Below are positions 30,631 to 43,693 of a stretch of DNA of 64,000 nt, piece by piece (positions within the stretch are counted from its first letter, which is position 1; each line of letters opens with the position of its first letter). Source of the stretch: Haloferax mucosum ATCC BAA-1512 (GTDB lineage: Archaea; Halobacteriota; Halobacteria; Halobacteriales; Haloferacaceae); the NCBI RefSeq assembly GCF_000337815.1, contig NZ_AOLN01000017.1:1-64000 (forward strand), read 5' to 3'. Made by a program: the position numbers and the translations under genes. The notes beneath the pieces were generated by a model that worked only from the letters and a program-made list of their open reading frames with translations, was not told the origin of the DNA and made no database searches.

Positions 30631-30687
30631 AAGCCTAGGCCGGGATTTGAACCCGGGGTCTCGTCCTTACCAAGGACGCGCTTTACC
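30631..30687 (-). other. att site: displaced 3' fragment of tRNA-Thr
   Basis: 57 bases match the 3' part of the intact tRNA-Thr gene at 42092-42163, with two differences (30643 and 30653). The fragment holds the anticodon arm, T arm and 3' acceptor strand but lacks the 5' acceptor and D-arm 5' half, so it is not a functional tRNA. The two differences swap a T-stem pair from A-T to G-C and so preserve pairing. It marks the left end of the element and is probably the original chromosomal tRNA end, displaced on insertion. Confidence 0.9.
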
Positions 30688-30708
30688 CCGCCGCTTTCAG
30701 CGGCGGAA
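30686..30708. repeat. Hairpin just inside the left att site
   Basis: CCGCCGCT-TTC-AGCGGCGG is a perfect 8-bp stem with a 3-base loop directly after the tRNA fragment. It resembles the foldback ends of IS200/IS605-type elements in haloarchaea, or a terminator. No transposase is nearby, so the origin is uncertain. Confidence 0.5.
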
Positions 30709-31091
30709 AGAGGCTACCTTTGCCGGCTTTCGCCCACTTCTGACTCTCTATGTCAGAAAACACTACACCTACTTTTATATAGTTAACGGGTACTCCCCGG
30801 CGTGTCGTACCAATATCACCCGGAAACGCTACACGGCTTCCGCCTCGAATCCCCATCACGTCCCTCACTTTCCCGTTCGTACTCCGCGCTCGTTTATAAG
30901 TGTACTTCGGGCTAATGAGCGAAACCCGACTCTTGCCTAAGGATGCGTGATAATGGTGGTCGTCTTGAGCGGCCCACCGCATCGAGGGGTTCGTCAATTT
31001 CTTGTGATGTAGCGGGGTAATCGCCAGTATACTTGAGGGTCTGGTCGATTGGGCTTTCCTCAATATCCGGAAAGCAGTCGGAATCGTCTTA
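30709..31091. other. Element left end, no supported gene
   Basis: A 15-bp element-wide repeat sits at 30977-30991. The 126-codon minus-strand frame at 30683-31063 is basic and runs into the att hairpin, so I do not call it. In the frame of the next gene, coding-like sequence (LEGLVDWAFLNIRKAVGIV) runs before its GTG, starting after a TGA near 31008. The 5' end of that gene may therefore have been lost or miscalled. Confidence 0.4.
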
Positions 31092-31472
31092 GTGTCATTT
31101 TTAGTTGCTATCGTCGTTTCCCAATACTACGATACCGGAGAGACATACGCCCGTATCGGAGAACTCTTTCGGGGGAAATCAGCTGTGGCGGTCGCGTTAA
31201 TCGTCATCGCTCTCGGGGGTTCGTTTCTCTCCTCTATCCTTCTGCCCCACCTCGTTCGAGCATTTACCGACCTACGGGTTCTCAGCTCGGCTCTTGGTTT
31301 CATCTGCTTTGCCGGGTTGTATCTTGCTAACGGAGAAGTGGACGAGTGGGATATGAACGACAGAAGCCGATTTATGATTGGATTGGTCGTCGTCGGTTCG
31401 GTTCTGTTCGTCGGGCCGTGGGTCTATGAACCACTCCTCCGCTGGATTACCGCGCAAATCCCGTTCATCTAA
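31092..31472 (+). CDS. Three-TM membrane protein of the element
   Basis: 126 residues from GTG 31092. Hydrophobic segments are SFLVAIVVSQYY, AVAVALIVIALGGSFLSSIL, SSALGFICFAGLYLA and FMIGLVVVGSVLFVGPWVY, separated by acidic loops. The frame stays open about 80 bases further upstream with coding-like sequence but no ATG, GTG or TTG, so it may be 5'-truncated. No family is recognised. Confidence 0.6.
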   Translation: MSFLVAIVVSQYYDTGETYARIGELFRGKSAVAVALIVIALGGSFLSSILLPHLVRAFTDLRVLSSALGFICFAGLYLANGEVDEWDMNDRSRFMIGLVVVGSVLFVGPWVYEPLLRWITAQIPFI

Positions 31473-32133
31473 TCGTTGTTCGGACGAGTGTCCGACTTCA
31501 TCGAGGGACGCTTTACTTCTCTAAGTTAACGCCGATGAACGACCGCCCATACGCCCCGTTTTCCGGGATTCTGAACCTCCCGAAATCGACGGCGTCGGCA
31601 ACCCTATTTACCTGACCTCAGACGGGAAAATTCTCGGCGCGACTTACTAACACTCGCGCGCGGTGTCCGGATGAATGTTCTAACCGGGGGTTTTACTTCG
31701 ACAATTGTCGTTGATTCTGTGGTGGTTGTGTCAATCTTACGCCGATTATTCGTGCGGCTTCTCTCGCGCTTTCTCGGGGCGTTTGTCCTTCGAGATGATG
31801 ATTCCCCTTCGGTCGAAAAAAGAATCCCGTAGCGAGCTTGCTGTGGCGTCTGGTGGGAAATGGGTGGGGTATCGGTGGTCGGGGTTCGGCGGGTGGTTGT
31901 CTGCCGGCGGGGAACGGGGGCCTCCTACTATGTATATACAGTAGGTGTCCCACCACTTCCCGTCTAACTACTTGTGACTAACCGCATCGAGGGGTTGTAA
32001 TAGACCAGTACACTACAACAGTAGAACACTCAGTAGTTCACCCACAGTATGTCTCCTATAGTAGGTGGCATAGGAGATACACAGTAGGAGACTCACCTTC
32101 GAGAACACCGCAGTTGGTACGTCGATTGTCGAA
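31473..32133. other. Regulatory/intergenic region of the element
   Basis: About 660 bases. 31525-31650 holds a 41-codon start-less frame that reads like a protein C-terminus (GNPIYLTSDGKILGATY). 31921-32090 holds clustered CAGTAG repeats and one copy of the 15-bp repeat (31982-31996). Frames at 31693-31956 on either strand are basic or Ser/Gly-rich and not convincing. Confidence 0.45.
31921..32090. repeat. Cluster of CAGTAG-type short repeats
   Basis: CAGTA(G/C/T) or TAGTAG occurs at 31939, 32006, 32019, 32031, 32045, 32059 and 32082, with an inverted CTACTA at 31925. CTCCTAT at 32054 and ATAGGAG at 32070 also form an inverted pair. The spacing of 12-23 bases between the last six copies resembles an iteron or operator array. 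Confidence 0.6.
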
Positions 32134-32346
32134 CTATTCGGGTTTCTCGGAACAGACGGCGTCCTGTAATTCGTCGTACAGCTCCGGGTGATGCTCCCGT
32201 AGTATCCCCGCGTCGGTCGTCAATTCGTCCTCTATCTTCCGACGAACTCGGGAGACTGCCTGATACCGGAGGTCGTCGTCGGCGTCGTCGTCTCCCTTGA
32301 TGAGTTCGCGCTCTCGTTTCGTCATCAGGGCGCGGCGAAAGACCAT
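32134..32346 (-). CDS. Small acidic provirus/plasmid-type protein
   Basis: 70 residues; the core is MTKRERELIKGDDDADDDLR followed by a helical VSRVRRKIEDELTTDAGIL and HHPELYDEL. Similar proteins are common in haloarchaeal proviruses and plasmids, as far as I recall, with unknown function. GGAG lies 8 bases before the ATG at 32346, favouring this start over an internal ATG at 32325. It is divergent from the SWIM gene across a perfect palindrome. Confidence 0.75.
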   Translation of the reverse strand: MVFRRALMTKRERELIKGDDDADDDLRYQAVSRVRRKIEDELTTDAGILREHHPELYDELQDAVCSEKPE

Positions 32347-32388
32347 ATAGTGTCTCCTGCGTGCGAGGGGTTAGTAGTTCCTATCCTT

Positions 32389-32400
32389 TACAACGTTGTA
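32389..32400. promoter_or_regulatory. Palindromic operator candidate
   Basis: TACAACGTTGTA is a perfect 12-bp palindrome in the divergent region between the small provirus-type gene and the SWIM gene. It lies next to the TATA-like CCTTTAAAAG at 32412-32421, where a repressor could cover both promoters. Confidence 0.45.
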
Positions 32401-32442
32401 GTATTTGGGAACCTTTAAAAGAGTGGCCGATAGACTACTGAG

Positions 32443-32517
32443 TACGAAGCGCGGTATCGCCGTCGCAGAAATGGCCGGTGCTGGAACACCGACCGCGCTT
32501 CGTGGAGCCACGAAGCA
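32443..32517 (+). promoter_or_regulatory. Structured leader of the SWIM gene
   Basis: CGAAGCGCGGT (32445-32455) and ACCGCGCTTCG (32492-32502) form a perfect 11-bp inverted repeat. A second, shorter one, GCTTCGTGG-agc-CACGAAGC, follows at about 32497-32516 and ends just before the ATG. The two pairings share bases, so they are mutually exclusive, as in switching leaders. Confidence 0.5.
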
Positions 32518-33048
32518 ATGTCAGCTAACGACTCAACGGCAAAAAAGAGCATCGTCACCGAACTGAATTTCGGCGCGAAGACGTCGAAGCGCGTCTCGTG
32601 GGAATCGTGGGAGTTCGCGGTCGAAGCCCCGCATCTGGTTCGCGTCACCAACGCCTCCTACGGCTTCGAGAAGGCCGACCACTCGTATCTCGTCGGCGTC
32701 GAAGACCGCGACGGCGTCCTCGTTCCGGCGGAGTGTGAGTGTCCGGCAGACAAGTACAACGAGGAGTACGACTGTAAGCACAAAGTCGCGCTCGCCACGG
32801 TCGGCGGCCCGGTCGTCCTCGAAGCCGCCGTGAACTTCCCAACGCCGAGCGGGAATCCCGAGCGGTCAAACGCATCGACGGTTGCGGACAAGCTCCGCGC
32901 AGACGGCGGGGCAACGACCAAGCGAATCGGCGGGGAGTCCAAACCCCTCGATGCGGAGGAACACGACGAGTGTGACTGTGCGGAACTCTCCGACGACTTC
33001 CCCTGCTGGCCCTGCGTAAGAGACGGGAATCGGGAACTCCCCGAGTAA
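32518..33048 (+). CDS. SWIM zinc-finger domain protein
   Basis: 176 residues. The SWIM motif CxCx(n)CxH is visible as CECPADKYNEEYDCKH at about residues 75-90, after two strands that include VEAPHLVRVTNASYGFE. The C-terminus has a second cysteine group, CDCAELSDDFPCWPC. SWIM domains bind DNA or proteins; short haloarchaeal versions are common on plasmids and proviruses. A copy of the element-wide 15-bp repeat (inverted) lies within its codons at 32943-32957. Confidence 0.85.
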   Translation: MSANDSTAKKSIVTELNFGAKTSKRVSWESWEFAVEAPHLVRVTNASYGFEKADHSYLVGVEDRDGVLVPAECECPADKYNEEYDCKHKVALATVGGPVVLEAAVNFPTPSGNPERSNASTVADKLRADGGATTKRIGGESKPLDAEEHDECDCAELSDDFPCWPCVRDGNRELPE

Positions 33049-33093
33049 TTCGCCAGTACCGTCTCTCAATCCCTCTTCTCTGTTCAGTTGCGG

Positions 33094-33453
33094 TTAGAGC
33101 CAGTCCACCTTGCTCTTGAGCATCCCACCGACGCCGAGGAGGAACAGGAGTTCGAAAATCTGGCTGGCTTGTACGAAGGCAGAGGGAACGAGGTACTGAC
33201 CGACGCCCGGAAGTCCAGCCCAAAAGACGAAGCCCACCACGACAAAACCGAGCGCGTACCGCGAGTTCCAATATTTGGCGGATGCGTAGACTCCGAGAAG
33301 CGGGAGTGCAGAAAGCGCCAAATACGCGAATCCGGCTTCTTGGGGGCCGTGGGTACTCTTGAGGACAACGACAATACTGAGGAGGACGACTGACGGGATG
33401 GCAAACTCCTCGAAGGTGCGACGTATGCCGTCGGTTAGGGAGGGCGCGGCCAT
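33094..33453 (-). CDS. Element membrane protein, 3-4 TM
   Basis: 119 residues starting MAAPSLTDGIRRTFEEFA. Hydrophobic helices are SVVLLSIVVVL, FAYLALSALPLLGVYAS, LGFVVVGFVFWAGLPGVG and IFELLFLLGVGGML. No family is recognised. It is convergent with the SWIM gene and lies just downstream of the restriction-modification gene on the same strand. Confidence 0.7.
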   Translation of the reverse strand: MAAPSLTDGIRRTFEEFAIPSVVLLSIVVVLKSTHGPQEAGFAYLALSALPLLGVYASAKYWNSRYALGFVVVGFVFWAGLPGVGQYLVPSAFVQASQIFELLFLLGVGGMLKSKVDWL

Positions 33454-33514
33454 AGTCGCATATATGTTTGATTGACACTAAAAACCGTGGGACGGGAACA
33501 CCCCAACCCTCGGA

Positions 33515-36500
33515 TTATGCGAGGTCGTCGTACTTCTCTAACACCGTCTCGAAGTAGTCCTCGTCCATCAAGCGGGGATTCTGGACGCGGTGGAAGTCGT
33601 CAAGTACGAACGCCGTTTGCTCGCGGTCAAGACCGTAGGCGTGGAACGCGGCGGCGTCAAGTTCGGCCTGTATCTCGCGGCGTTCCTCCATCGTCGTCGC
33701 CGGCTCGATGCCACCCAGTCGGTCACGCATCTCCTCGAACTCCTCCCCGTAGCAGTTGAGCCGAGCAGCTCGCTTCCAGAGGTAGTCGAACCACTCGTCC
33801 CCCTCAGTAAGTCGAGGTGTCTGTGATTCCTCAAACTTGTATTTCGGGATGTGAGTATTGACCTTAGTGCGGATAAGGAAGTCGAATGGGATACTGTTCA
33901 ACAATCCGACGAAGACAAACAGTTCCTCGTTGGTGAACTCACGTTTGTAGGCCGAGTGCAGAGGGCTATCTTCCAGAACCTCGCCATTGACACCTATCTC
34001 GTATGGTTTGACTGTCCGGACACTATCCAAACAGACAATCTCGGGAGGGATAACGCTCGCAATCATCGTCCGTTCATCCGATGAACGGGCAATATCACGG
34101 AATACAATCCGGTATTCCTCACAATCTAATTTTACGTCAGAAGCCGATAACGGTTCCCCTCGCTTCTCTTCCAGTAGGTTGTTTACAAACGCCTTCTGCG
34201 ACTTTCTGGTTTCCTCTCCACCAAACTGCTCGTAGATGGCCCGCTTCAACGTACCACTATTGAACGCTTTTTCTCGAACTCGATATTGTGCGCTCTGCTC
34301 CGGATTATCTTCACCAACACTCCAGAACTTGGGACTGTCAATATCGTCAAAAACAGCGTTATTATGACAGAATTGGTAGAATTGTGCACCTCCGTATACC
34401 GGATAGTCGCCCGCTGGCTCTTCCGATTCGATTAAATACTCGTCATCATATGCAAGAATCAGTTCACGGTGAGCCTCTGCTTTCCAGACAGAATCTCTAT
34501 CCTGTGAAACCGGAGGATGCTTAAGAATCTCATTAAGCACATCTGCCTCTTGTTGACTGGTGACTGCGGGGAAGATACGTGCTTCCGGCGAATAAGATTC
34601 CAGTACTCGACGGGGAATCTGTACTGTTTTCTCTATGGAATTATCTAATACAGACACATCCCGTTGTCGGAATATCCCCCGGAGAGATTCTGTACGGCCT
34701 GAGTTCTTGAACGTCAATATACCAAACCGATAGCGGTTGTCGATTCCGTCAAATATACCCTTATTTTCAAACTCGATTAGGCTCTGAATCTCGGTTTTAT
34801 CCAGCAGATGTGTTCGGAGGTCTTTGGTAGCAGACCCATTGAAGATGTTTCCGGGTAGGACTTGGGCTACGTATCCATCTGGACGAGTTATACTGAAAAC
34901 TCTCTCCAAAAACAAGGCAGAAAGGTCGTTCTCGTTGGTGTTTGTCTGCCCCGCAATAGTCGGAGATTGCATCTCGAAGGTAGTTCCGTCTGTGAAGTAA
35001 TCCTGCTGTCTCTCCATCTGAGTCTGGTATTCTTTCCACGCTTCCTCTATCGCATCATCTTTGAGTAATTCCGAGATTCGCTCGTCTTTCTGGTTTGGCG
35101 TCAGGGTGCGAAACCGTTCATCGTACCGTGAGAAGAAGTCGTCTCGACTAACGGTGAGTACGTCCCACGGCGGGTTTCCGATGAGGACATCGAAACCACC
35201 GTCAGAATACACTTCAGCAAATTCGAGAACCCAATTGAAGGGACTCATCTCGGCGACTTCTTCAGGGGTGATATCCTCTATTCCCGCCTCTACGAAGTCC
35301 GCGTGAATGTCGTCTATCAGCTCCTCACGAGCGTCCCGCAGTTTCTCGAAAGCGCGACGTCGGTGTTTCTCCGCCATCTTGCTGTCGATGGCCTTCTCGT
35401 GTTTCTCGATTTCCTCGATAATGTCCTGATAGCGGTCGCGGACGCTGTCCCCGCTGAAACTCCCGAGCCGGTACTGCTCGTCTCCGTTCGTCTCAGGGAA
35501 GCCCGTGTACCCGATGAGACTGTTCCCCTCCCGTAGGTTGAACGCAATATTGGGCAGGGCGAGCGCGTCGTCCTGCGCGAGGTCATCAACGTTCTCCGTT
35601 TCGAGTTCCGAAATGACCGACAACCAGCATCGAAGCTTGGCTATCTCCACCGCCGGCCCCATCAGGTCAACCCCGTAGATGTTGTTGAGGACGGTCGTCT
35701 TCTTTAGCCGGTACTCGTCGGGGTACGCCTCATTCTGCGCGTAGAGGGCCTTCCGGATATTGACTATCTCTTCGAGGACGCTGGTAAGGAAGTGCCCACT
35801 TCCACACGCGGGGTCAACCACCCGAAACTCGTTCACTTCGTCCAAGAGCGGCCCGATAGTACCCATATGACCGGGAAGCCCCTCGATGAGTTCGTACACC
35901 GAGTCGAACCGCTCGGCTTCGTGTTCCGGCCAGTCGCACTCTTCGACAAGCACCGTCTGGAAGCGGTCGAGCAGAGCGGGGCGGACAGTCTCTTCGGCGG
36001 AGAACCGGGTAATCTCGCTCGGCGTGTAGTACGCTCCGAGTTCCTTGTTGGTGTCCGCGTTGTCGCTGGTAATGTAGTTGATTGTCTTCTCGAAGACGTT
36101 GCCGAGAACGCTCGGGTCGAGGTCGGTTGGTGCGCCTTCTGCTGAGAAGCTGTATCGCTCCAAGAGGTCGATGATGGAGAATAGCACCGAGTTCCGGACG
36201 TCGAAATCCCCCTCCTCGAAGTCGTCCCCGCTAATCGTGGGTCGGAAGAGGCCGCCGTTGAGGTACGGAATGTTCTCGAAGAGGTCGATGTTCTGTACCT
36301 CATCGGGACGGTCGTCCGGCTTGTTGTTCATCACGTCGTAGAACAGGGGTTGACAGAACGACTCGTAGAACGAGCCGGCGTACATCCCGTTCTCGTAGGT
36401 GTCCTTGAGTGTACTGAGGAGGTCGGGTTCGACGAGGGCCTTGTCTTCGAGGAACTTGATGAAGACGAGCCGATTCATCAGTTCGACCGCGAAGAGGCGG

Positions 36501-37369
36501 GCGTTGTCCTCGGTCGCCTCCTCTGGAACGACGACGCCGTCACCGACGAGTGAACGGGCAGTCTCTTCGTCGTCGCTGACGATGCCGAAGACGTACCGTA
36601 TGTAGTCGTCGTAGAACTCGTCGGTGATTTCCTCCTTCTTCTCCTTGATGACGCGGCGGGCGTCACCCGCAATGGAGACGAAGTTCTCGTACTCGAAGGT
36701 ACGGACGAGTCGGACGACGCGGTCGCGGTCGGCATCGAAGAGCGCATCCGTGGGGTCGTCGCGTTTGCCGACCTGATTCTCGAAGAGGGCGAGAAAGACG
36801 GGCTGGAGGTCGACCTCCTCGATGACGTTGAGCGTGTAGGAGTCCGGGTCGTATCGGACGAACACCCACCGGAGGCCGTCAGTAGCAAATCCGAAGTCCG
36901 ACTCGAACTCGCGTTGACTCAGCCAGTCCCGCACTTGCCCGACGCCGTGCTTGCGGCTATCGAGGTCTTTGTTGATGGGTTCGGCTTCGATAAGGAGTCG
37001 GGTGGAGTCAATTTCGGGGTGGTTGCGGAGAGAGACGGTGTAGTCCGCGACCTGCGTTTGTCCGCCCGAGAGTCCGCCGGCCTCGGTCGAATACTCGTGC
37101 CCCAACGCATCGAGCAGGGGATTGATGACGGCTTCCTGCGTGAAGGATTCGGGTTGGAGGCCGTCTTTGGTCATTCCGCTCTTGAGCTGGTAGGAGCCGG
37201 CGTCGGCCCGGAGGATGCTTTCGAGGGTGTCGTCGTCTATCTGGTCGCGGAGGTTCGAGACGGCGTCATCAATCGTCTGGATGAAGCGGTCGGTTTCGTC
37301 GTCGGTGACGGTCGTCTCGAAGGCGTCGGCGACGAACTCGGTGGGAACAGATGATGAGTCGGAGGACAT
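33515..37369 (-). CDS. Eco57I-like restriction-modification protein (type IIG)
   Basis: 1284 residues, the size of a single-chain type IIG enzyme. The N-terminal 150 residues resemble an HsdR-type nuclease: TQEAVINPLLDALG, VADYTVSL with D109, then LIEAEPINKDLD with E128 and E130. The usual Lys of (D/E)xK is Glu here. The N6-adenine methylase core follows: NKELGAYYTPSEI, motif I VDPACGSGHFL (about residue 520), and motif IV IGNPPW (about 730). The C-terminal 400 residues should be the target-recognition domain (PVYGGAQFYQ, IPKYKFEES). It is last in the defence cassette. A PglX-like role is less likely because no other BREX genes are present. Confidence 0.85.
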   Translation of the reverse strand: MSSDSSSVPTEFVADAFETTVTDDETDRFIQTIDDAVSNLRDQIDDDTLESILRADAGSYQLKSGMTKDGLQPESFTQEAVINPLLDALGHEYSTEAGGLSGGQTQVADYTVSLRNHPEIDSTRLLIEAEPINKDLDSRKHGVGQVRDWLSQREFESDFGFATDGLRWVFVRYDPDSYTLNVIEEVDLQPVFLALFENQVGKRDDPTDALFDADRDRVVRLVRTFEYENFVSIAGDARRVIKEKKEEITDEFYDDYIRYVFGIVSDDEETARSLVGDGVVVPEEATEDNARLFAVELMNRLVFIKFLEDKALVEPDLLSTLKDTYENGMYAGSFYESFCQPLFYDVMNNKPDDRPDEVQNIDLFENIPYLNGGLFRPTISGDDFEEGDFDVRNSVLFSIIDLLERYSFSAEGAPTDLDPSVLGNVFEKTINYITSDNADTNKELGAYYTPSEITRFSAEETVRPALLDRFQTVLVEECDWPEHEAERFDSVYELIEGLPGHMGTIGPLLDEVNEFRVVDPACGSGHFLTSVLEEIVNIRKALYAQNEAYPDEYRLKKTTVLNNIYGVDLMGPAVEIAKLRCWLSVISELETENVDDLAQDDALALPNIAFNLREGNSLIGYTGFPETNGDEQYRLGSFSGDSVRDRYQDIIEEIEKHEKAIDSKMAEKHRRRAFEKLRDAREELIDDIHADFVEAGIEDITPEEVAEMSPFNWVLEFAEVYSDGGFDVLIGNPPWDVLTVSRDDFFSRYDERFRTLTPNQKDERISELLKDDAIEEAWKEYQTQMERQQDYFTDGTTFEMQSPTIAGQTNTNENDLSALFLERVFSITRPDGYVAQVLPGNIFNGSATKDLRTHLLDKTEIQSLIEFENKGIFDGIDNRYRFGILTFKNSGRTESLRGIFRQRDVSVLDNSIEKTVQIPRRVLESYSPEARIFPAVTSQQEADVLNEILKHPPVSQDRDSVWKAEAHRELILAYDDEYLIESEEPAGDYPVYGGAQFYQFCHNNAVFDDIDSPKFWSVGEDNPEQSAQYRVREKAFNSGTLKRAIYEQFGGEETRKSQKAFVNNLLEEKRGEPLSASDVKLDCEEYRIVFRDIARSSDERTMIASVIPPEIVCLDSVRTVKPYEIGVNGEVLEDSPLHSAYKREFTNEELFVFVGLLNSIPFDFLIRTKVNTHIPKYKFEESQTPRLTEGDEWFDYLWKRAARLNCYGEEFEEMRDRLGGIEPATTMEERREIQAELDAAAFHAYGLDREQTAFVLDDFHRVQNPRLMDEDYFETVLEKYDDLA

Positions 37370-37454
37370 TGATGAATCCGGAGTAGGTTACTCGATTCTG
37401 GTTCGGAAATGGTGATAAACGTAGGGGTACTCAAATCCGTCCGCCCGTTGAGAG

Positions 37455-38225
37455 CTAATAGTCTGCCAGTAGTTTCCGGAGGAAAGGTTCCGCCTTCTCT
37501 CGGAGTTCGGAAACCTCCGCTTCAACGTTATTCTCGGGTATTTGGAAGACAAGCCGACCCGAGTCGGTAATCCCCAATCGCTCGTCGTCGGAGTTGTAGT
37601 AGGTGAGTTGGCGAATGGTGGACAGTTCAACGAATCTATCGACCAAATCTGAGCGTTTGAGGTTGCGCGATTGTGTGTATCCCCGGCTTAATTGTAGGTA
37701 GCCCACCTCGTCGCCCAACTCGCTGATTAAACCTGATAAGTCGTGGTCGTCTGCACTAATATTCCCGAGTTGGCCGAATTTGATACGGCTCACTTCATTG
37801 GCATTCCTGTATTCCTGTCGAATATGCTCTTGCTGGAAGTCTTGGAAGATGTGATAGTCGTCTTCCGCGTCTTCAGGCGACTTACTCAGTAGGAAGGCCG
37901 GGATTCGTTCGTCGGGAATATCCTCCCGTGACTCGAATATAAAACCGCCATCATCGAAATAGAGTACTCGTGCGGAATATGCTTCTTCGTGGGTGTGGTC
38001 TTCTATTCCGTTGTCTCCGAGAGTCTGATATTCACTCTCAACTTCGGTAGAGAACTCAAGGAAATAGCCGTCAGTCAGGTCGGTAAACACCCGCTCAGGA
38101 CGAGAGTTCGGGGTGGAGAGTTGTGTCTGTTGTTTCACTAATCGGCTTTCAAGGTCGTTCGTCGTTGGAGGGCCATCGTCTTGGGGGTCAAGGACACCGA
38201 ACCTGAGTCGTACTTCTTCAGCCAT
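37455..38225 (-). CDS. Unrecognised protein between CBASS and RM genes
   Basis: 256 residues, acidic, without transmembrane segments. It begins MAEEVRLRFGVLDPQDDG and has a strand-rich N-terminal half (GYFLEFSTEVESEYQTLG, ARVLYFDDGGFIFESRED). A helical C-terminal half follows, including VDRFVELSTIRQLTYYN and REKAEPFLRKLL. I see no catalytic motif. It lies 84 bases after the Cap15-like gene and 85 bases before the RM gene on the same strand, so it could belong to either system or link them. Confidence 0.7.
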   Translation of the reverse strand: MAEEVRLRFGVLDPQDDGPPTTNDLESRLVKQQTQLSTPNSRPERVFTDLTDGYFLEFSTEVESEYQTLGDNGIEDHTHEEAYSARVLYFDDGGFIFESREDIPDERIPAFLLSKSPEDAEDDYHIFQDFQQEHIRQEYRNANEVSRIKFGQLGNISADDHDLSGLISELGDEVGYLQLSRGYTQSRNLKRSDLVDRFVELSTIRQLTYYNSDDERLGITDSGRLVFQIPENNVEAEVSELREKAEPFLRKLLADY

Positions 38226-38309
38226 AATATGTGTTTGAAGAGGAATGACAGTAAAACTGACCTTACCGGAGTGAAAGTAAAACCGGACTCAGAATCGGAG
38301 AGGAATCGC

Positions 38310-38966
38310 TCAGAAATCCAGTATTCTTCTCTTGCTTTTGCGCTCAAAGCGCATATACCCGTGATTATTCCTCTGCTCGTCTGTATAGTAGTCTCCTTCG
38401 AGAACTGCGTTCCCCTCCTCGCCTGTAACAAGCCGAAGCCGGTTCGTGCCTTCGTGTATTCGTTGAGTCTCCGGTAACTCGTCACCCGTTTTTCGATTCC
38501 GGTATGTGAATAGAATCTCGGGGTCGCTCTTGTCAGTACGAATAGTCGCACTGGTGCTTTCAGAACGTGAAGACCCCGGATTAACAAATATGACTTCAAT
38601 CATCGACCATCGTTGCTGAACTTCCAGCCGTGGCCCACATTCATCCTCTCCGTTAGATTGACTATCGTCACTGTCCTCCACGAAGGAGGAATTGAACTTT
38701 CCTTTCCAAGTCCCATTCAAATCGGGGGTTGCCAATACGCGTTGAATCCCCGGTAATCGCCAGCCAATATAGTCGAAACCGAGGTAAAATCCAGTGAATA
38801 CCGCAAATGCCGAAATACCCACTACATCGAAATTTAGTGCTATAAGGAATTGGTTGATAGTAGAAGTAATTCCGAGGGCTATAGCCATCAATACGCCGAT
38901 GATTTTCCATCGACGAGTAGGAGTTGAATAGGGATGCACAAGTTCACCACTCCTCCCATAACTCAT
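38310..38966 (-). CDS. CBASS effector, Cap15-like (2TM plus beta-barrel)
   Basis: 218 residues. Two transmembrane helices occupy about residues 20-44 (IIGVLMAIALGITSTI) and 47-68 (VVGISAFAVFTGFYLGF). They are followed by LNGTWKGKF at about 83-91 and a strand-rich domain of 130 residues. This is the layout of Cap15, in which the beta-barrel binds a cyclic dinucleotide and the TM part oligomerises to disrupt the membrane. It follows the CD-NTase gene on the same strand, overlapping by 23 bases if ATG 38966 is used. A GTG at 38939 with GGAGG upstream would remove the overlap and give 209 residues. Confidence 0.82.
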   Translation of the reverse strand: MSYGRSGELVHPYSTPTRRWKIIGVLMAIALGITSTINQFLIALNFDVVGISAFAVFTGFYLGFDYIGWRLPGIQRVLATPDLNGTWKGKFNSSFVEDSDDSQSNGEDECGPRLEVQQRWSMIEVIFVNPGSSRSESTSATIRTDKSDPEILFTYRNRKTGDELPETQRIHEGTNRLRLVTGEEGNAVLEGDYYTDEQRNNHGYMRFERKSKRRILDF

Positions 38967-39855
38967 TCAGGCCTGCGACCGTGTCCTCTGCTGACTGCGT
39001 ATCCCATTTGTCCGGGTCAGTAGAATCAAATAGCGGCCGCATCTCGCTCTGTTCGGTAAATGTGGAGAAGTCCGCGATTTCCAGCCAGCCAAGAATACTC
39101 TCATAGCGGTCTCGAAGCGACTCTGTAAATAGGCCATCATCGACATTATACAGCAAACATTCGAGGAAGTACGAAGAGGCGACATCCGCCTCTAAGTGTC
39201 CACGGTCAACGGCAAAGTCGCGGGCTTTCTTGAACATCCGGACGGTCTCCTTGTAGTTCCCATCGGTCGCCTCCATTTTATCGACACCCTGCTCGTAGTG
39301 TTCCAGCGAATAGTTGATGATGACTCTATCTTCTGTTGGAGGCTTGAACCACATTCCTTCGGTAAACTGTGCGTCGTCCGGATTGGGGAAGGAATGGTAA
39401 ACCCGGTACTGAAGACAGGGAACTACGTCGGCCTTTCTCGGGAGAGGTGTCCCTTCTGAATCGACTTTTATTGCCTTGTTGTCATTCGTCACGTTACCTC
39501 GGTTGAAGTAGCGTTTCAGAGAGGTGAGTACATCATCACGAAAGTCACGAGAGTTATAATCAGAGGAGGTCACCCAATTCTCGTATCGTTCTTGCTCGGC
39601 TGGACTAAGGTCATCCAGATTCCGTGTCCAAGGGCCAGTACACTTCACAACAATATCCACGTCCGCCTCTGAGTTGATGGTGTTCGTCGTATTCTTGTAG
39701 GAACCTTGAAGATGAACCTTGTAGCTGTGTTCGAACTGGCTTAGTGCCGAGCGGTCGCTATCAAGTGCTCGTTTGATTACACCGAGTGTATCACTCGATG
39801 TCTGAACGGGGCCTTCTTGCTTCCAACTTTCGAGTACGGAGGTAGGGATTCCCAT
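38944..39855 (-). CDS. CBASS CD-NTase (cGAS/DncV-like nucleotidyltransferase)
   Basis: 303 residues. The catalytic set is complete: the GSY loop at residues 51-53 (LQGSYKNTT), D65 and D67 in ADVDIVV, and the third acidic residue D143 in KADVVPCL. The layout GS, then DxD about 12 residues later, and a distant D in a strand, plus a helical C-terminal half, is that of cGAS/DncV-like enzymes (SMODS). These make cyclic oligonucleotides on phage infection. It is the first gene of the cassette; the next gene encodes the effector. It lacks OAS-specific insertions, and its nucleotide product cannot be read from sequence. Confidence 0.87.
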   Translation of the reverse strand: MGIPTSVLESWKQEGPVQTSSDTLGVIKRALDSDRSALSQFEHSYKVHLQGSYKNTTNTINSEADVDIVVKCTGPWTRNLDDLSPAEQERYENWVTSSDYNSRDFRDDVLTSLKRYFNRGNVTNDNKAIKVDSEGTPLPRKADVVPCLQYRVYHSFPNPDDAQFTEGMWFKPPTEDRVIINYSLEHYEQGVDKMEATDGNYKETVRMFKKARDFAVDRGHLEADVASSYFLECLLYNVDDGLFTESLRDRYESILGWLEIADFSTFTEQSEMRPLFDSTDPDKWDTQSAEDTVAGLNELWEEW

Positions 39856-40011
39856 AAGTGGCCTCGCCTCAATTGACTAATTCTCCAATCTAAGTGAACT
39901 AAAAGGCCGCCAAAGGGGAGTGAAAGTGGACGTCGAATAGATTAACCACGGTTTCCGATATGCAGAGCTTGTTAGAAGTTGATGCCGATGACGTTCTTCC
40001 AGAACGCAAAA

Positions 40012-40055
40012 AAGCCCCGCTGGTGTCACGGGGAACACCAACGGGGTGGGGCTTA
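40012..40055. repeat. Long imperfect hairpin
   Basis: AAGCCCC...TGGTGT, an 8-base loop region (CACGGGGA), then ACACCA...GGGGCTT. The inner TGGTGT/ACACCA and outer AAGCCCC/GGGGCTT pair with a small asymmetric bulge. It could be a terminator, a structured RNA or a DNA cruciform. Confidence 0.5.
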
Positions 40056-40384
40056 CGGGAATCGACGCATCGAGGGGGAGATACTTCCGGCGTCGTCGTC
40101 AGTCGGGGAATGATGAAGTAGCAGGCTCCCCCGTCTTTCGGTGATGGGTGAGCCGGCGGCGACCGGCGCGCGGTGGCTCCCTCTGTGGCTGTACCTCTCT
40201 GTGTTTTACTCTGAGTGTTTGACCGCATCGAGGGGTTCGGGAACCTACGGCTACTCTCTGAGTGTATCGCTTACTTGTGACCAAGCCTCGATGCGTTGAA
40301 CCTCGGTGAAATCTACAGAGTGTATGTATAAGAGAGTAGATAATTAGTGTGTTTCCTCCGTAGTCGCCGTTCGCCGCTCCTCAC

Positions 40385-40398
40385 TACCATTAATGGTA
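40385..40398. promoter_or_regulatory. 14-bp palindrome, operator candidate
   Basis: TACCATTAATGGTA is a perfect palindrome about 30 bases before TTTATATACTA. It lies in the gene-free region and its regulated target is unclear. Confidence 0.4.
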
Positions 40399-40707
40399 AA
40401 GGGTTAATGTAGGATGTGGGGTGTTTATATACTAACTACCAGATATTGAATATGTCTTCCGGGCGTAGTATCCCAATTTAGCAGTAATAACGGCGTTTTA
40501 CCTCGTATTCAACAGAATATCGGGGAATCACTAACAATTCCGTATCGTACTTCGTCCTGACAGTTCTCGGGCGCGCTACCGGAGACTGGCCGCCCAGTAT
40601 GAGTGTATTCTGATAGTTTCGGCGGGTCAGTTCCACCCCTCGATGCGGGGTACCGCGTAGGTCGGGTTCGACGGCGTCACGGAGTTAACCGCGACGGCGA
40701 CGACCCA

Positions 40708-41913
40708 CTACCAGATTTGTTCGACGGCGTCGTTCCGTGTCTCCGCGTCCGAGTGGAGGTACTTCATCGTCGTATTGATGCTCTTGTGCCGGAGCTGTTC
40801 CTTCGCGTGATGCGGCCCGACGTGATTCGCCCAATAAGTGGCGACCCCGTGCCGTATCGCGTACCACGAGATATTCTGGTGAGCCGGTATCGGGACGTTC
40901 CCCCGCTCGATGAGTGTGTCCAGCAGGTAGTTACACGAGTCCTTTCCATACTGCGTCCCGCGCTTTGTCAACCAGAGTTCGTCGCGGTCGGCGTACTTGT
41001 CGTAGGACGCGCGTTCGTCTAACCAGCGTTCCAGCACCGTCGCGGTTCGCTTCTTCAACGAACAGTTCCAATGCCCCTCGTTCTTCGTGGAGTCCTCCTT
41101 CGGGACGTTGAGTTCGTTGTCTTCGAGATTCACCCACGACACCTTTGCTCGCCCCACCTCGATGGGTCGAAGCCCGGTGTCGAGTGTCACCGCAATCATC
41201 GAGGGAACCTTCCACGAGTTCGCCTTCTTGAAGTCTTCCGGCCCAACCTTCTCTTTCGGAACGCCGAACCGTTGCGACAGATACAGCTTCAACCGCTCGC
41301 GTTCCTCCGAGGACATATCGGTGTGGTAGCTTTTCATCGAGCCGTAATCGAGCGCCGCTTCATACAGGGGCTGGAACGCGGCCCGGCGAAGGTACGCCCG
41401 TTCGTCACCGTTCGACTGACTCAGTTGCGGCTTCGGTTCCCACTCGTAGTCCGTCCCGTAGACGTGGTTGGTGAACTTGAAGAACCGCTTAATGTCCTTC
41501 GCGTGGTGGAGGACGGTGGAGTCTATCATCGAGTCCGTCTGATTCAGGAGGTCGATGAAGCGGTCTGCGTGTTCGGGCGTGAACTCCGTGGTGTACTTGT
41601 CCTCGTACTTCCAGAGCCAGCGGAACACCGTTTCCAGCTTGTAGTGCGTACTCTTGAGGGTCGTCTCCGACAGCCCTTCACCCTTCTCTGGATGCTTGCC
41701 GTAGGTAGCTAACCACGTCAGCACTTCCTCTTTGAAGTCGCGGTAGTCGTCCACCATATTCAGCCCGAAGCCTTCGAGGTCTGCTTCGGAGCGTTCGCTA
41801 ACGAGCGGGAAGTCGAACTCCACGGGTTCGGGTGCGGGTGGAATCCCGAAGTCGTCCCCGTCGTCGGGGAGGTCGTTGGGGATGTTGTCGAGCGGGTCGG
41901 GGCGGTTAGTCAC
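40708..41913 (-). CDS. Tyrosine recombinase (integrase)
   Basis: 401 residues. A SAM-like N-terminal DNA-binding region is at about 60-150. The catalytic domain holds R249 (TGLRPIEVG), K272 in the beta-hairpin (VPKEDSTKN), R354 (SWYAIRHGVA), H376 (LRHKS) and the nucleophile Y385 (TTMKYLH). The usual His of HxxR is replaced by an aromatic residue, as in many archaeal integrases. It starts at GTG 41913. It lies beside the intact tRNA-Thr, the normal place for the gene that inserts and excises such elements. Confidence 0.92.
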   Translation of the reverse strand: MTNRPDPLDNIPNDLPDDGDDFGIPPAPEPVEFDFPLVSERSEADLEGFGLNMVDDYRDFKEEVLTWLATYGKHPEKGEGLSETTLKSTHYKLETVFRWLWKYEDKYTTEFTPEHADRFIDLLNQTDSMIDSTVLHHAKDIKRFFKFTNHVYGTDYEWEPKPQLSQSNGDERAYLRRAAFQPLYEAALDYGSMKSYHTDMSSEERERLKLYLSQRFGVPKEKVGPEDFKKANSWKVPSMIAVTLDTGLRPIEVGRAKVSWVNLEDNELNVPKEDSTKNEGHWNCSLKKRTATVLERWLDERASYDKYADRDELWLTKRGTQYGKDSCNYLLDTLIERGNVPIPAHQNISWYAIRHGVATYWANHVGPHHAKEQLRHKSINTTMKYLHSDAETRNDAVEQIW

Positions 41914-42090
41914 GCGGGTTCACCCCCGAATCGGGTGACTGCGCGGGGGCGTTCGTTATAGTGTCCTGACAACTAACGAAATCGCAAGACGGCGTCGGGG
42001 TTGCCGTGTAGCGTTTTCGGGCTTTCTTGCGCATATTTTATTCTCTCCATAGAGAATCGTAAAATGGCGCGAGAAGCCGTGAAACGCAGG
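41914..42090. other. Integrase upstream and right attachment arm
   Basis: Between the integrase start and the att repeat. It contains CACTATAACG on the minus strand (TATA-like, about 41955-41965) and an inverted repeat ATTCTC-tccata-GAGAAT at 42040-42057. The latter may be a recombinase binding site or the tRNA terminator. Confidence 0.4.
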
Positions 42091-42147
42091 AAGCCTAGGC
42101 CGAGATTTGAACTCGGGGTCTCGTCCTTACCAAGGACGCGCTTTACC
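42091..42147 (-). other. att site (element-borne copy) within tRNA-Thr
   Basis: Matches the left att 30631-30687 except at 42103 and 42113. By the usual tRNA-insertion logic the 3' part of the intact tRNA here came with the element. Confidence 0.85.
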
Positions 42148-42163
42148 GCTAAGCTACCCAGGC
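42092..42163 (-). tRNA. tRNA-Thr (GGT)
   Basis: 72 bases on the minus strand. Acceptor strands GCCTGGG and CCTAGGC pair with one G-U and have discriminator T. The D arm is GCTT/AAGC. The anticodon arm CGTCC-TTGGTAA-GGACG gives anticodon GGT. The T arm is CCGAG-TTCAAAT-CTCGG. No intron. It is the integration site of the element, and its 3' half is probably element-supplied. Confidence 0.95.
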
Positions 42164-42979: not shown

Positions 42980-43693
42980 ATGATACGGACAACGGACGAC
43001 GGCGACCTACGGGTCGTCACCATCGACCGACCGGAGCAACGAAACGCGCTCAGACCGACCGACCTCGAAGCCCTCGACGAGACAATCGACGAAACAGACA
43101 CACCGGTCGTCCTGCTGCGCGGACACGGGCCGGCGTTTTGCGCCGGTGCCGACCTCGATAGCGTCACAGACCTCGACGACGACTCCAGGCTTCCAGACCC
43201 CGAGGGATTCGCCCGGTTAGGCCAGCGTGTCGCCGACACCATCGAATCGTCCGAGTCGGTCGTCGTCGCCGGTATCGACGGCGCGGCTCGCGGCGGCGGC
43301 GTCGAACTGGCGTTGGCGTGTGACGTGCGGGTTGCAACCCCGCGTTCGACACTTGGCGAGCCGGGCGTCCGACTCGGCCTATTCGGCGCGTGGGGCGGGA
43401 CGGTTCGCCTGCCGCGCATCGTCGGCGAGGGTCACGCCCTCGAATTTTCGCTCTCCGGCCGGGTCGTAGACGCCGACGAGGCGCTTCGGATGGGTCTCGT
43501 CTCTCGAATCGTAGACGACCCGCGGAGAGTCGCCGACTCGATAGCTGGCAACGACCACCGATCGCTCCGAATCATCAAACAGCGACTCCGAGACCGCAGT
43601 CCCGACAACGAACGGTTCGAAGCCGAGGCGGCGGGATTCGCTGAACTGCACCGCTCGAATGTCGATGCCATCGCCTCGTCGAGAAGAGACTAG
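42980..43693 (+). CDS. Enoyl-CoA hydratase/isomerase family protein
   Basis: 237-residue crotonase-fold protein. It has RPEQRNALR near the start, the oxyanion-hole segment FCAGADLDSVTD, and the second one, GAARGGGVELALACDVRVA. The usual catalytic Glu region is GEPGVRLGLFGAWGGT. It should act on CoA thioesters, possibly in beta-oxidation or branched amino-acid breakdown. It starts at ATG 42980. The long upstream open frame is not coding. Confidence 0.85.
   Translation: MIRTTDDGDLRVVTIDRPEQRNALRPTDLEALDETIDETDTPVVLLRGHGPAFCAGADLDSVTDLDDDSRLPDPEGFARLGQRVADTIESSESVVVAGIDGAARGGGVELALACDVRVATPRSTLGEPGVRLGLFGAWGGTVRLPRIVGEGHALEFSLSGRVVDADEALRMGLVSRIVDDPRRVADSIAGNDHRSLRIIKQRLRDRSPDNERFEAEAAGFAELHRSNVDAIASSRRD

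Follow-up and report, generated by a model that had tools for sequence, protein, structure and literature searches.

Bacterial phage satellites, among them the PICIs, the P4-like elements and the cfPICIs, are small integrated elements that lack a full virion gene set and carry defence cargo. In archaea the fusellovirus satellites pSSVx and pSSVi have a spindle-shaped helper and a plasmid-type Rep. Full-text literature searches, with most subscription journals outside their scope, listed no satellite of a haloarchaeal tailed virus and no paper combining 'Haloferacalesvirus' with 'satellite'; in the accessible part of PMC11389934 the satellites of archaeal viruses are cited via a fusellovirus reference. 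The intergenic repeats of Haloferacalesvirus (the HF1/HF2 group) have been cloned and act as promoters, as shown for HF2. One class II repeat starts a 35-kb late transcript across the morphogenesis genes, and a viral class II repeat drives the terS-terL late operon (PMC8707807).

The window, the whole stretch of 64,000 nucleotides analysed here, contains an 11.5-kb integrated element (the island) whose features are collected in Table 1. It resembles the PICIs, P4-like elements and cfPICIs in being small and integrated, with a helper-type genome-end site and promoter and with defence cargo, and differs from them in that its host and helper are archaeal; neither homologous regulators nor redirecting genes were found in it. 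It is a candidate satellite that appears to work like those of phages and would depend on a helper. With pSSVx and pSSVi it shares the principle of an archaeal satellite, but its helper would be a tailed virus and its defence cargo is integrated. Compared with the Haloferacalesvirus proviruses at tRNA-Thr (such as Hdep-prov1), as described in the accessible part of PMC7230728, it has the same integrase, attP arms, target tRNA and genome-end site, whereas its length is 11.5 kb against ~77 kb for the provirus, and no HF2-type terminase, portal, capsid, tail or polymerase genes were detected in it. The interval between the end of the integrase gene and the start of the CD-NTase gene (the gap) is, with a probability of about 0.68, the promoter, leader and terminator region of the defence operon of a Haloferacalesvirus satellite.

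The island, its cargo and its viral borders

The island is bounded by a 57-bp direct repeat (30631-30687 and 42091-42147, 96% identity), with the tRNA-Thr gene at 42092-42163; it is integrated and has a recombinase and attachment sites. The integrase with its flank (40707-42148) is 75% identical to HF2 39439-40873. Each of 13 integrase orthologues (69-73% identical) has a tRNA-Thr(GGT) gene in the adjoining stretch. A conserved non-coding stretch beside the integrase was looked for and discarded, as these closest relatives have none and three more distant ones differ there. At another locus (L048) copies of the tRNA-Thr end ~2.3 kb apart enclose an integrase of the same family and ~1 kb, forming a minimal element.

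Table 1. Positions of the features in the window
Feature	Position	Strand	Remarks
Integrated element, candidate Haloferacalesvirus satellite	30631-42147	.	Direct repeats of tRNA-Thr(GGT) end
Left attachment site and viral-type attP arm	30631-30726	+	84% to HF2 40816-40911, other side of HF2 attP
Repeat copy	30978-30989	+	
Copy of Haloferacalesvirus genome-end site	31600-31691	+	Direct terminal repeat border, putative nick site
Repeat copy	31983-31994	+	
SWIM zinc-finger protein	32518-33048	+	Common to four sisters (L240, L241, L242, L263)
Repeat copy	32944-32955	-	Within SWIM gene
Type IIG restriction-modification enzyme	33515-37369	-	PADLOC E=3e-39; Pfam Eco57I
Cap15-type CBASS effector	38310-38966	-	Pfam PF18153 E=7e-18; PADLOC 2TM effector
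CBASS nucleotidyltransferase (CD-NTase)	38944-39855	-	First cargo gene; PADLOC Cyclase E=3.2e-102
Terminator-like hairpin, then T6	40008-40046	-	In six elements
Repeat copy	40062-40077	+	Adjoins hairpin
Repeat copy	40219-40236	+	153 bp from start of promoter match
Repeat copy (UUCAACGCAUCGAGG)	40286-40300	-	5' arm of possible leader stem
Class II intergenic-repeat promoter	40377-40434	-	Common to Haloferacalesvirus; 86% to HF2 76597-76655
14-bp palindrome TACCATTAATGGTA	40385-40398	.	Incidental, within promoter copy
Promoter core CCCTTTACCATTAAT	40389-40403	-	
TATA-like box TTTATATACTA, facing right	40424-40434	+	Aligns with TTCATATACTA in HF2
Repeat copy	40636-40647	-	Downstream of integrase
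Tyrosine integrase	40708-41913	-	70.6% identical to HF2 integrase

The cargo can be assigned to CBASS from its CD-NTase and effector matches, and the CD-NTase gene starts ~150 nt past the hairpin of the gap, in the same direction. Small ORFs are also present. The SWIM protein had no match among phage records; its relatives occur in 47 plasmid records, and in the 15 rows listed these are 33-39% identical and all haloarchaeal. No SWIM or replication-like protein was confirmed in viral contigs. Several sister elements encode a replication-like protein of ~600 aa (L241:10157-12010, L243:4157-6007, L265:11106-12956 and L266:7462-9255) that is absent from the window island. When three of these were scanned against PHROGs only that of L265 matched, weakly, to a replication-initiation family; a distant protein of L242 has a primase match in the same collection. 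At L244:14092-15120 a 342-aa protein matches PHROG 35116 (unknown function) at 2.4e-135 and found no phage-collection record by tblastn. Outside the island, ARAGORN calls a tRNA-Cys at 43301-43389, overlapping a long ORF that is enoyl-CoA-hydratase-like by eye; since Rfam makes no such call and the ORF overlaps it, the call is probably spurious.

The copy of the viral genome-end site in the left part of the island is a candidate packaging or replication signal. Against phage records at E up to 1 it matched 41, of which 40 are haloviruses, matched at the ends of their genomes, and the other is a Curtobacterium phage (E 0.5); a longer query at E 0.01 matched 32 phage records, all haloviruses, and all eight of the matching haloviruses whose taxonomy was checked are Haloferacalesvirus. 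A profile made from eight viruses only gave 1.7e-15 for the window, 4e-14 for L241, 7e-13 for L240, 1e-10 for L244, 6.1e-10 for L242 and 6e-4 for L243, and detected no viral genome end in L263, L265 or L266. In 16 control loci the genome-end profile found two weak matches (L051, E=0.003; L046, E=0.08) and none in the other 14 at E up to 10. The genome-end pattern occurs in six viral contigs, which at 74-78 kb are as long as virus genomes. No relatives of the island were confirmed in viral contigs beyond those of isolate-genome length, and packaging finds no support among the virome contigs.

A tblastn search with HF2 ORFs (304, each at least 90 codons long) found the integrase in the island and no HF2 structural, terminase or polymerase gene, and a comparison of the island proteins with HF2 agreed. 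The HF2 ORFs likewise found none of these gene classes in the sisters; the matches there were to integrase and methylase, with weak hypothetical-protein matches in L240 (two) and L263 (one). As a positive control, the HF2-ORF search recovered terS, terL, portal, protease and capsid genes beside the promoter in the L294 provirus. This locus lies in G445, a genome of the same family; it is a Haloferacalesvirus provirus whose tail genes, as well as terS, terL, portal and capsid, fall within the 20 kb that were read. A search of the remainder of the host genome, made without a positive control, found no HF2-type capsid gene. The virion-gene searches covered HF2 proteins, other virus families being searched less than exhaustively, and by this measure the island has no complete virion gene set; having none of the HF2-type terminase, portal, capsid and tail genes, it is not classed as a Haloferacalesvirus provirus.

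Promoter, leader and hairpin in the gap

The original prediction described part of the gap (40012-40437) as a possible control region without a gene, marked by a hairpin, a 14-bp palindrome, a TATA box and three copies of a repeat. All of these are present (the box is TATA-like) and there is no convincing gene. The control region itself is upheld, and the palindrome drops out as incidental. The hairpin and repeat are far beyond chance and the palindrome is not. The window contains eight perfect 14-bp palindromes, TACCATTAATGGTA among them; it was considered as an operator and rejected, such palindromes being common in the window and the sequence not being palindromic in HF2, L264, L265 or L266. 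Its pattern matched at least 120 viral contigs and is uninformative. A coding reading of the gap was also set aside: a 109-aa ORF (39899-40228, minus strand) extends across the hairpin, and neither Pfam nor PADLOC gave a match to it at E 0.01. The repeat core CGCATCGAGG has three copies in the predicted control region (40066+, 40224+ and 40286-) and seven in the 11.5-kb island, where 0.09 are expected from an order-3 Markov model, with none in the 52.5 kb flanking the island. The 12-mer CGCATCGAGGGG occurs nine times in the 3.37-Mb genome, six of them inside the island; the reversed control occurs nowhere.

The promoter copy has the near-identical 29-bp AT/C pattern of a class II repeat with its CCCTTTAC core, and matches over 59 bp an HF2 feature that is the class II intergenic repeat IR12c. 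The alignment with HF2 would place a TATA-like box at ~40411-40404 and the start site at ~40385, with transcription running leftward; the TATA-like box of the island copy has two changes relative to the class II repeat. The gap matched 41 annotated phage records, all haloviruses by name, and among the 20 listed the match lies at 40377-40445 or part of that interval. In five of six related viruses the gene adjoining the class II repeat is annotated 'putative terminase small subunit', and in VOLN27B 'hypothetical'. The 15-mer core CCCTTTACCATTAAT was found in five of 156 family genomes (reversed control, 0), those of the window, the sisters L264 and L266, the L294 provirus and a further element, L293. 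At L293:9704-9942 (G108) the core and a weak match to the viral genome end (E 2.5e-4) are 140 bp apart, and this locus is possibly a further element type.

Relative to IR12c and the terS leader of HF2, the island copy has the same promoter sequence, orientation and CTCGATGCG word in the leader; it differs in standing before a hairpin and defence genes, where the virus has terS, and in its extra repeat copies. In all eight viruses examined CTCGATGCG lies in the leader shortly before the terS start, and ACTCGATGCG, which is the island 10-mer minus one base, is present in seven of the eight terS leaders. Eighteen viral contigs carry ACCGCATCGAGGGGTT, one of which (L080) was taken as Serpecor1. 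In Serpecor1 the 12-mer repeat and the promoter match are 153 bp apart, as they are in the island, and their order and orientation agree with it too. This equal spacing may be due to chance, because the spacing varies among viruses (the word is 182-208 nt from a common reference point, and 185 in Serpecor1) and the intervening sequence does not align.

The hairpin is formed by the arms CCCCGTTGGTGT and ACACCAGCGGGG (40015-40046 on the minus strand), followed by C and by T6 at 40013-40008. It folds with -24.3 kcal/mol (z -4.7, with 0 of 200 shuffles as good), and the corresponding z in four sisters is -4.8 to -5.3. A stable G+C-rich stem followed by a U run is the form of an intrinsic terminator, and the hairpin is putatively one. 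A tail of U4-U6 is present in five of the six hairpins; that of L263 is degraded, in a sequence that was cut short for folding. The minus strand of the whole predicted control region folds better than its shuffles (z -3.1, 0 of 100 as good), and the plus strand gives a weak signal (z -1.9, 3 of 100).

Sister elements and signatures in the DNA

Conservation in sister elements was looked for and found, with the hairpin in five sisters and the promoter core in three of those five. A search of 392 Halobacteriales genomes with the gap (E <= 0.001) matched 16. Six of these hold the hairpin, namely that of the window and those of the sisters L244, L263, L264, L265 and L266; one (G314, L240) has the repeat region only, and the other nine matched only the G+C-rich part of the query, 144-197. 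Another search of 392 genomes matched 39, 33 of them weakly; the other six are the genome of the window and five whose loci were used here. A search of 170 family genomes gave five matches, all among these 16, and one of 98 genomes gave, besides the window, short matches near the integrase end in L002 and L003. The hairpin pattern is absent from viral contigs, and in genome contigs occurs at three loci: L268 and L269, both sisters, and a Citrobacter contig that was dismissed as chance.

The tRNA genes near the hairpin elements are Thr in the window, Glu for L244, Gly for L263 and L264, Lys for L265 and Ser for L266; among the sisters, L244 and L263 have duplicated tRNA ends. In five of the six elements the hairpin is preceded by a repeat copy whose start is 32-35 nt away (87 in L264), and a copy on the opposite strand lies 136-300 nt before the hairpin. 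In the window, L264, L265 and L266 the viral promoter core precedes the hairpin and in all four points at it. Defence genes follow the hairpin, in the same direction, in five of the six elements, the L264 contig ending first; the gene calls in the sisters were based on ORF length and acidity. In L265 these are type I restriction-modification genes (PADLOC). L244 and L266 have type I systems after one or two other genes, with HsdM and HsdR 82-89% identical to those of L265. In L263 a methyltransferase and a UvrD-type helicase follow an opposite-strand ORF, and the best PADLOC model for the helicase is DRT helicase, then GajB. Downstream of the hairpin in L264 is a gene with weak MarR/ArsR matches below the Pfam cut-offs, and the rest of that contig shows no defence gene. 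The features are combined differently in the elements: promoter and hairpin in L264 (a 6.5-kb contig end), L265 and L266; terminus and hairpin in L244; terminus alone in L240, L241, L242 and weakly L243; hairpin alone in L263. Only the window island has promoter, hairpin and genome end together, and no sister has every feature.

The word CATCGAGG is enriched ~5- to 6-fold in Haloferacalesvirus genes, as a DNA signal that spans the genome. It occurs 74 times in HF2 (L213/L214), 75 in Serpecor1 (L281/L282) and 75 in HCTV-7 (L283/L284), against synonymous-shuffle means of 13.6, 13.1 and 12.4 (maxima 21, 19 and 21). There is no enrichment in phiCh1 (6 vs 12.6), BJ1 (12 vs 12.0) or the window flanks (7 vs 6.8). 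These counts rest on our own ORF calls, and those for the elements on curated genes with 100 shuffles. The curated counts exceed all 100 shuffles in L240, L244, L265 and L266. In the window island there are 5 against 1.2, reached by one shuffle of 100; L263 is reached by two and L241 by five, and the counts are not unusual in L242 (27 of 100) or L264 (28 of 100). Those of L241, L244, L265 and L266 are not independent, because their restriction-modification genes are homologous.

Seven HF1-group isolates lack GATC and CTAG, according to the accessible part of PMC7230728, and both were again 0 in three viruses that were recounted. The island has no GATC (46.7 expected) and no CATG (20.4 expected), and its CTAG sites are confined to the two tRNA copies. 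The flanks have fewer of these sites than expected without being free of them, with GATC at 27 of 147.9 and 12 of 98.1 expected, CTAG at 10 of 30.2 and 7 of 21.7, and CATG at 55 of 70.5 and 30 of 47.0. Among the sisters GATC is 0 in L263 and 3 of 33.4 in L240, and ranges from 35 of 66.2 to 37 of 32.0 in the other six, the element limits of L240, L242, L265 and L266 being estimates in these site counts. L266 is without AGCT.

Origin and function of the control region

Several findings point to a satellite: the promoter and repeat are homologous to those of the virus, six elements have the hairpin, the island has an integrase, attP arms and a genome-end site of viral type, and no HF2-type structural gene was found in it. 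Its promoter, leader and hairpin are identified by homology and recurring architecture, from which we infer transcription, regulation, packaging and helper dependence as follows. The viral late promoter would start a leftward transcript at ~40385, the leader of which carries copies of a virus-specific word able to pair into stems. It would end at the U-tailed hairpin at ~40008, ahead of the CBASS and type IIG operon. The hairpin would be a terminator or attenuator, and infection by the helper could raise expression of the leader or read-through, and hence the cargo. The captured terS leader with its paired repeats suggests attenuation, or an RNA targeting or mimicking the helper terS leader. 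Helper control is not a given, because in the published reporter work the viral promoters needed no virus factors for their activity (PMC8707807). Helper enzymes might replicate, cut or package the excised island via the 31.6-kb site. Weighing against this reading are the scatter of the features over the sisters, the lack in the island of the replication-like protein that several sisters have, the failure to find its relatives in virome contigs other than those of isolate-genome length, and the capsid search of the host genome that found nothing.

The same viral parts could have been left by deletion of a Haloferacalesvirus provirus, its genes replaced by defence genes and its control region a fossil. 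The integrase and attP arms are viral, as are the late promoter, the repeat and the terminus, and the structural genes are gone; the accessible part of PMC7230728 places proviruses of this group at tRNA-Thr. The cis parts, however, recur in part near other tRNA genes (Val, Ala, Glu, Gly, Lys and Ser), some with clearly different integrases; the SWIM protein is without a phage-record match; and among the phage matches listed for the gap the promoter is covered, but not the hairpin. The integrase and cargo frames are moreover open, and the sites avoided by the virus are absent, so that a remnant seems improbable. The island could also be an autonomous integrative element that took up a viral promoter without depending on the virus. 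Such an element would fit the replication-like proteins that several sisters encode for themselves and the plasmid relatives of the SWIM protein; it fails to explain together the genome-end site, the attP arms and the virus-like avoidance of sites, and we regard it as decidedly improbable.

The function of the gap itself has also been read in other ways. Clustered repeats, a hairpin and an AT-rich stretch might be expected of an origin from which the excised circle replicates or is transferred, which the original prediction had offered as one possibility. The gap instead aligns with a mapped promoter and terS leader, no replication gene was recognised nearby with Pfam or PADLOC, and the better candidate is the homolog of the putative nick site and viral genome end at 31.6 kb; an origin in the gap thus finds no support and is highly improbable. 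The small RNA that had been proposed could be a regulatory product of ~380 nt that pairs with or mimics the terS leader of the helper and so interferes with its packaging. The 5' arm includes TTCAACGCATCGAG, which is perfectly complementary over 14 nt to the HF2 terS leader, and the other seven viruses differ from HF2 at one position of this stretch. Some arms change together (GAGC/GCTC in L266, and CATAGA/TCTATG in L263 and in the upstream pair of L265), the L265 hairpin has A-U for G-C in one stem pair, and a promoter-to-hairpin block of ~330 nt is 80% identical between L265:10156-10485 and L266:9485-9818. This block resembles a structured RNA and has no Rfam match. A known RNA family was not borne out: in the window and five sisters, Rfam 15 at the gathering score matched tRNAs and nothing else. 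Across the window, L264, L263 and L244 the leader is for the most part unalignable; the L263 arm beside the hairpin mismatches the 5' arm at the corresponding position; and the compensatory changes are few and were judged by eye, without a statistical covariation test. Since viral genes too are enriched in the word, it can act as DNA. A regulatory RNA is accordingly doubtful, and the transcript may be no more than a leader to the defence operon.

Returning to the satellite, a wider proposal is that there is a family of haloarchaeal tailed-virus satellites that captured the late promoter and terS leader and inserted a terminator, such that CBASS and type I or IIG restriction-modification systems are released late in infection, with the shared word CATCGAGG marking DNA for helper replication or packaging. 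We put this forward tentatively, as possible rather than probable, and have lowered its odds slightly because the curated recount was weaker for the word in the elements. If the satellite reading is correct, satellites that parasitise tailed viruses and carry immune systems would occur in archaea as they do in bacteria. The helper could be named from sequence, as a group with cultured members (HF1, HF2 and Serpecor1). Direct tests could then show whether the helper controls CBASS, whether a known genome end serves in packaging and what the shared word does.
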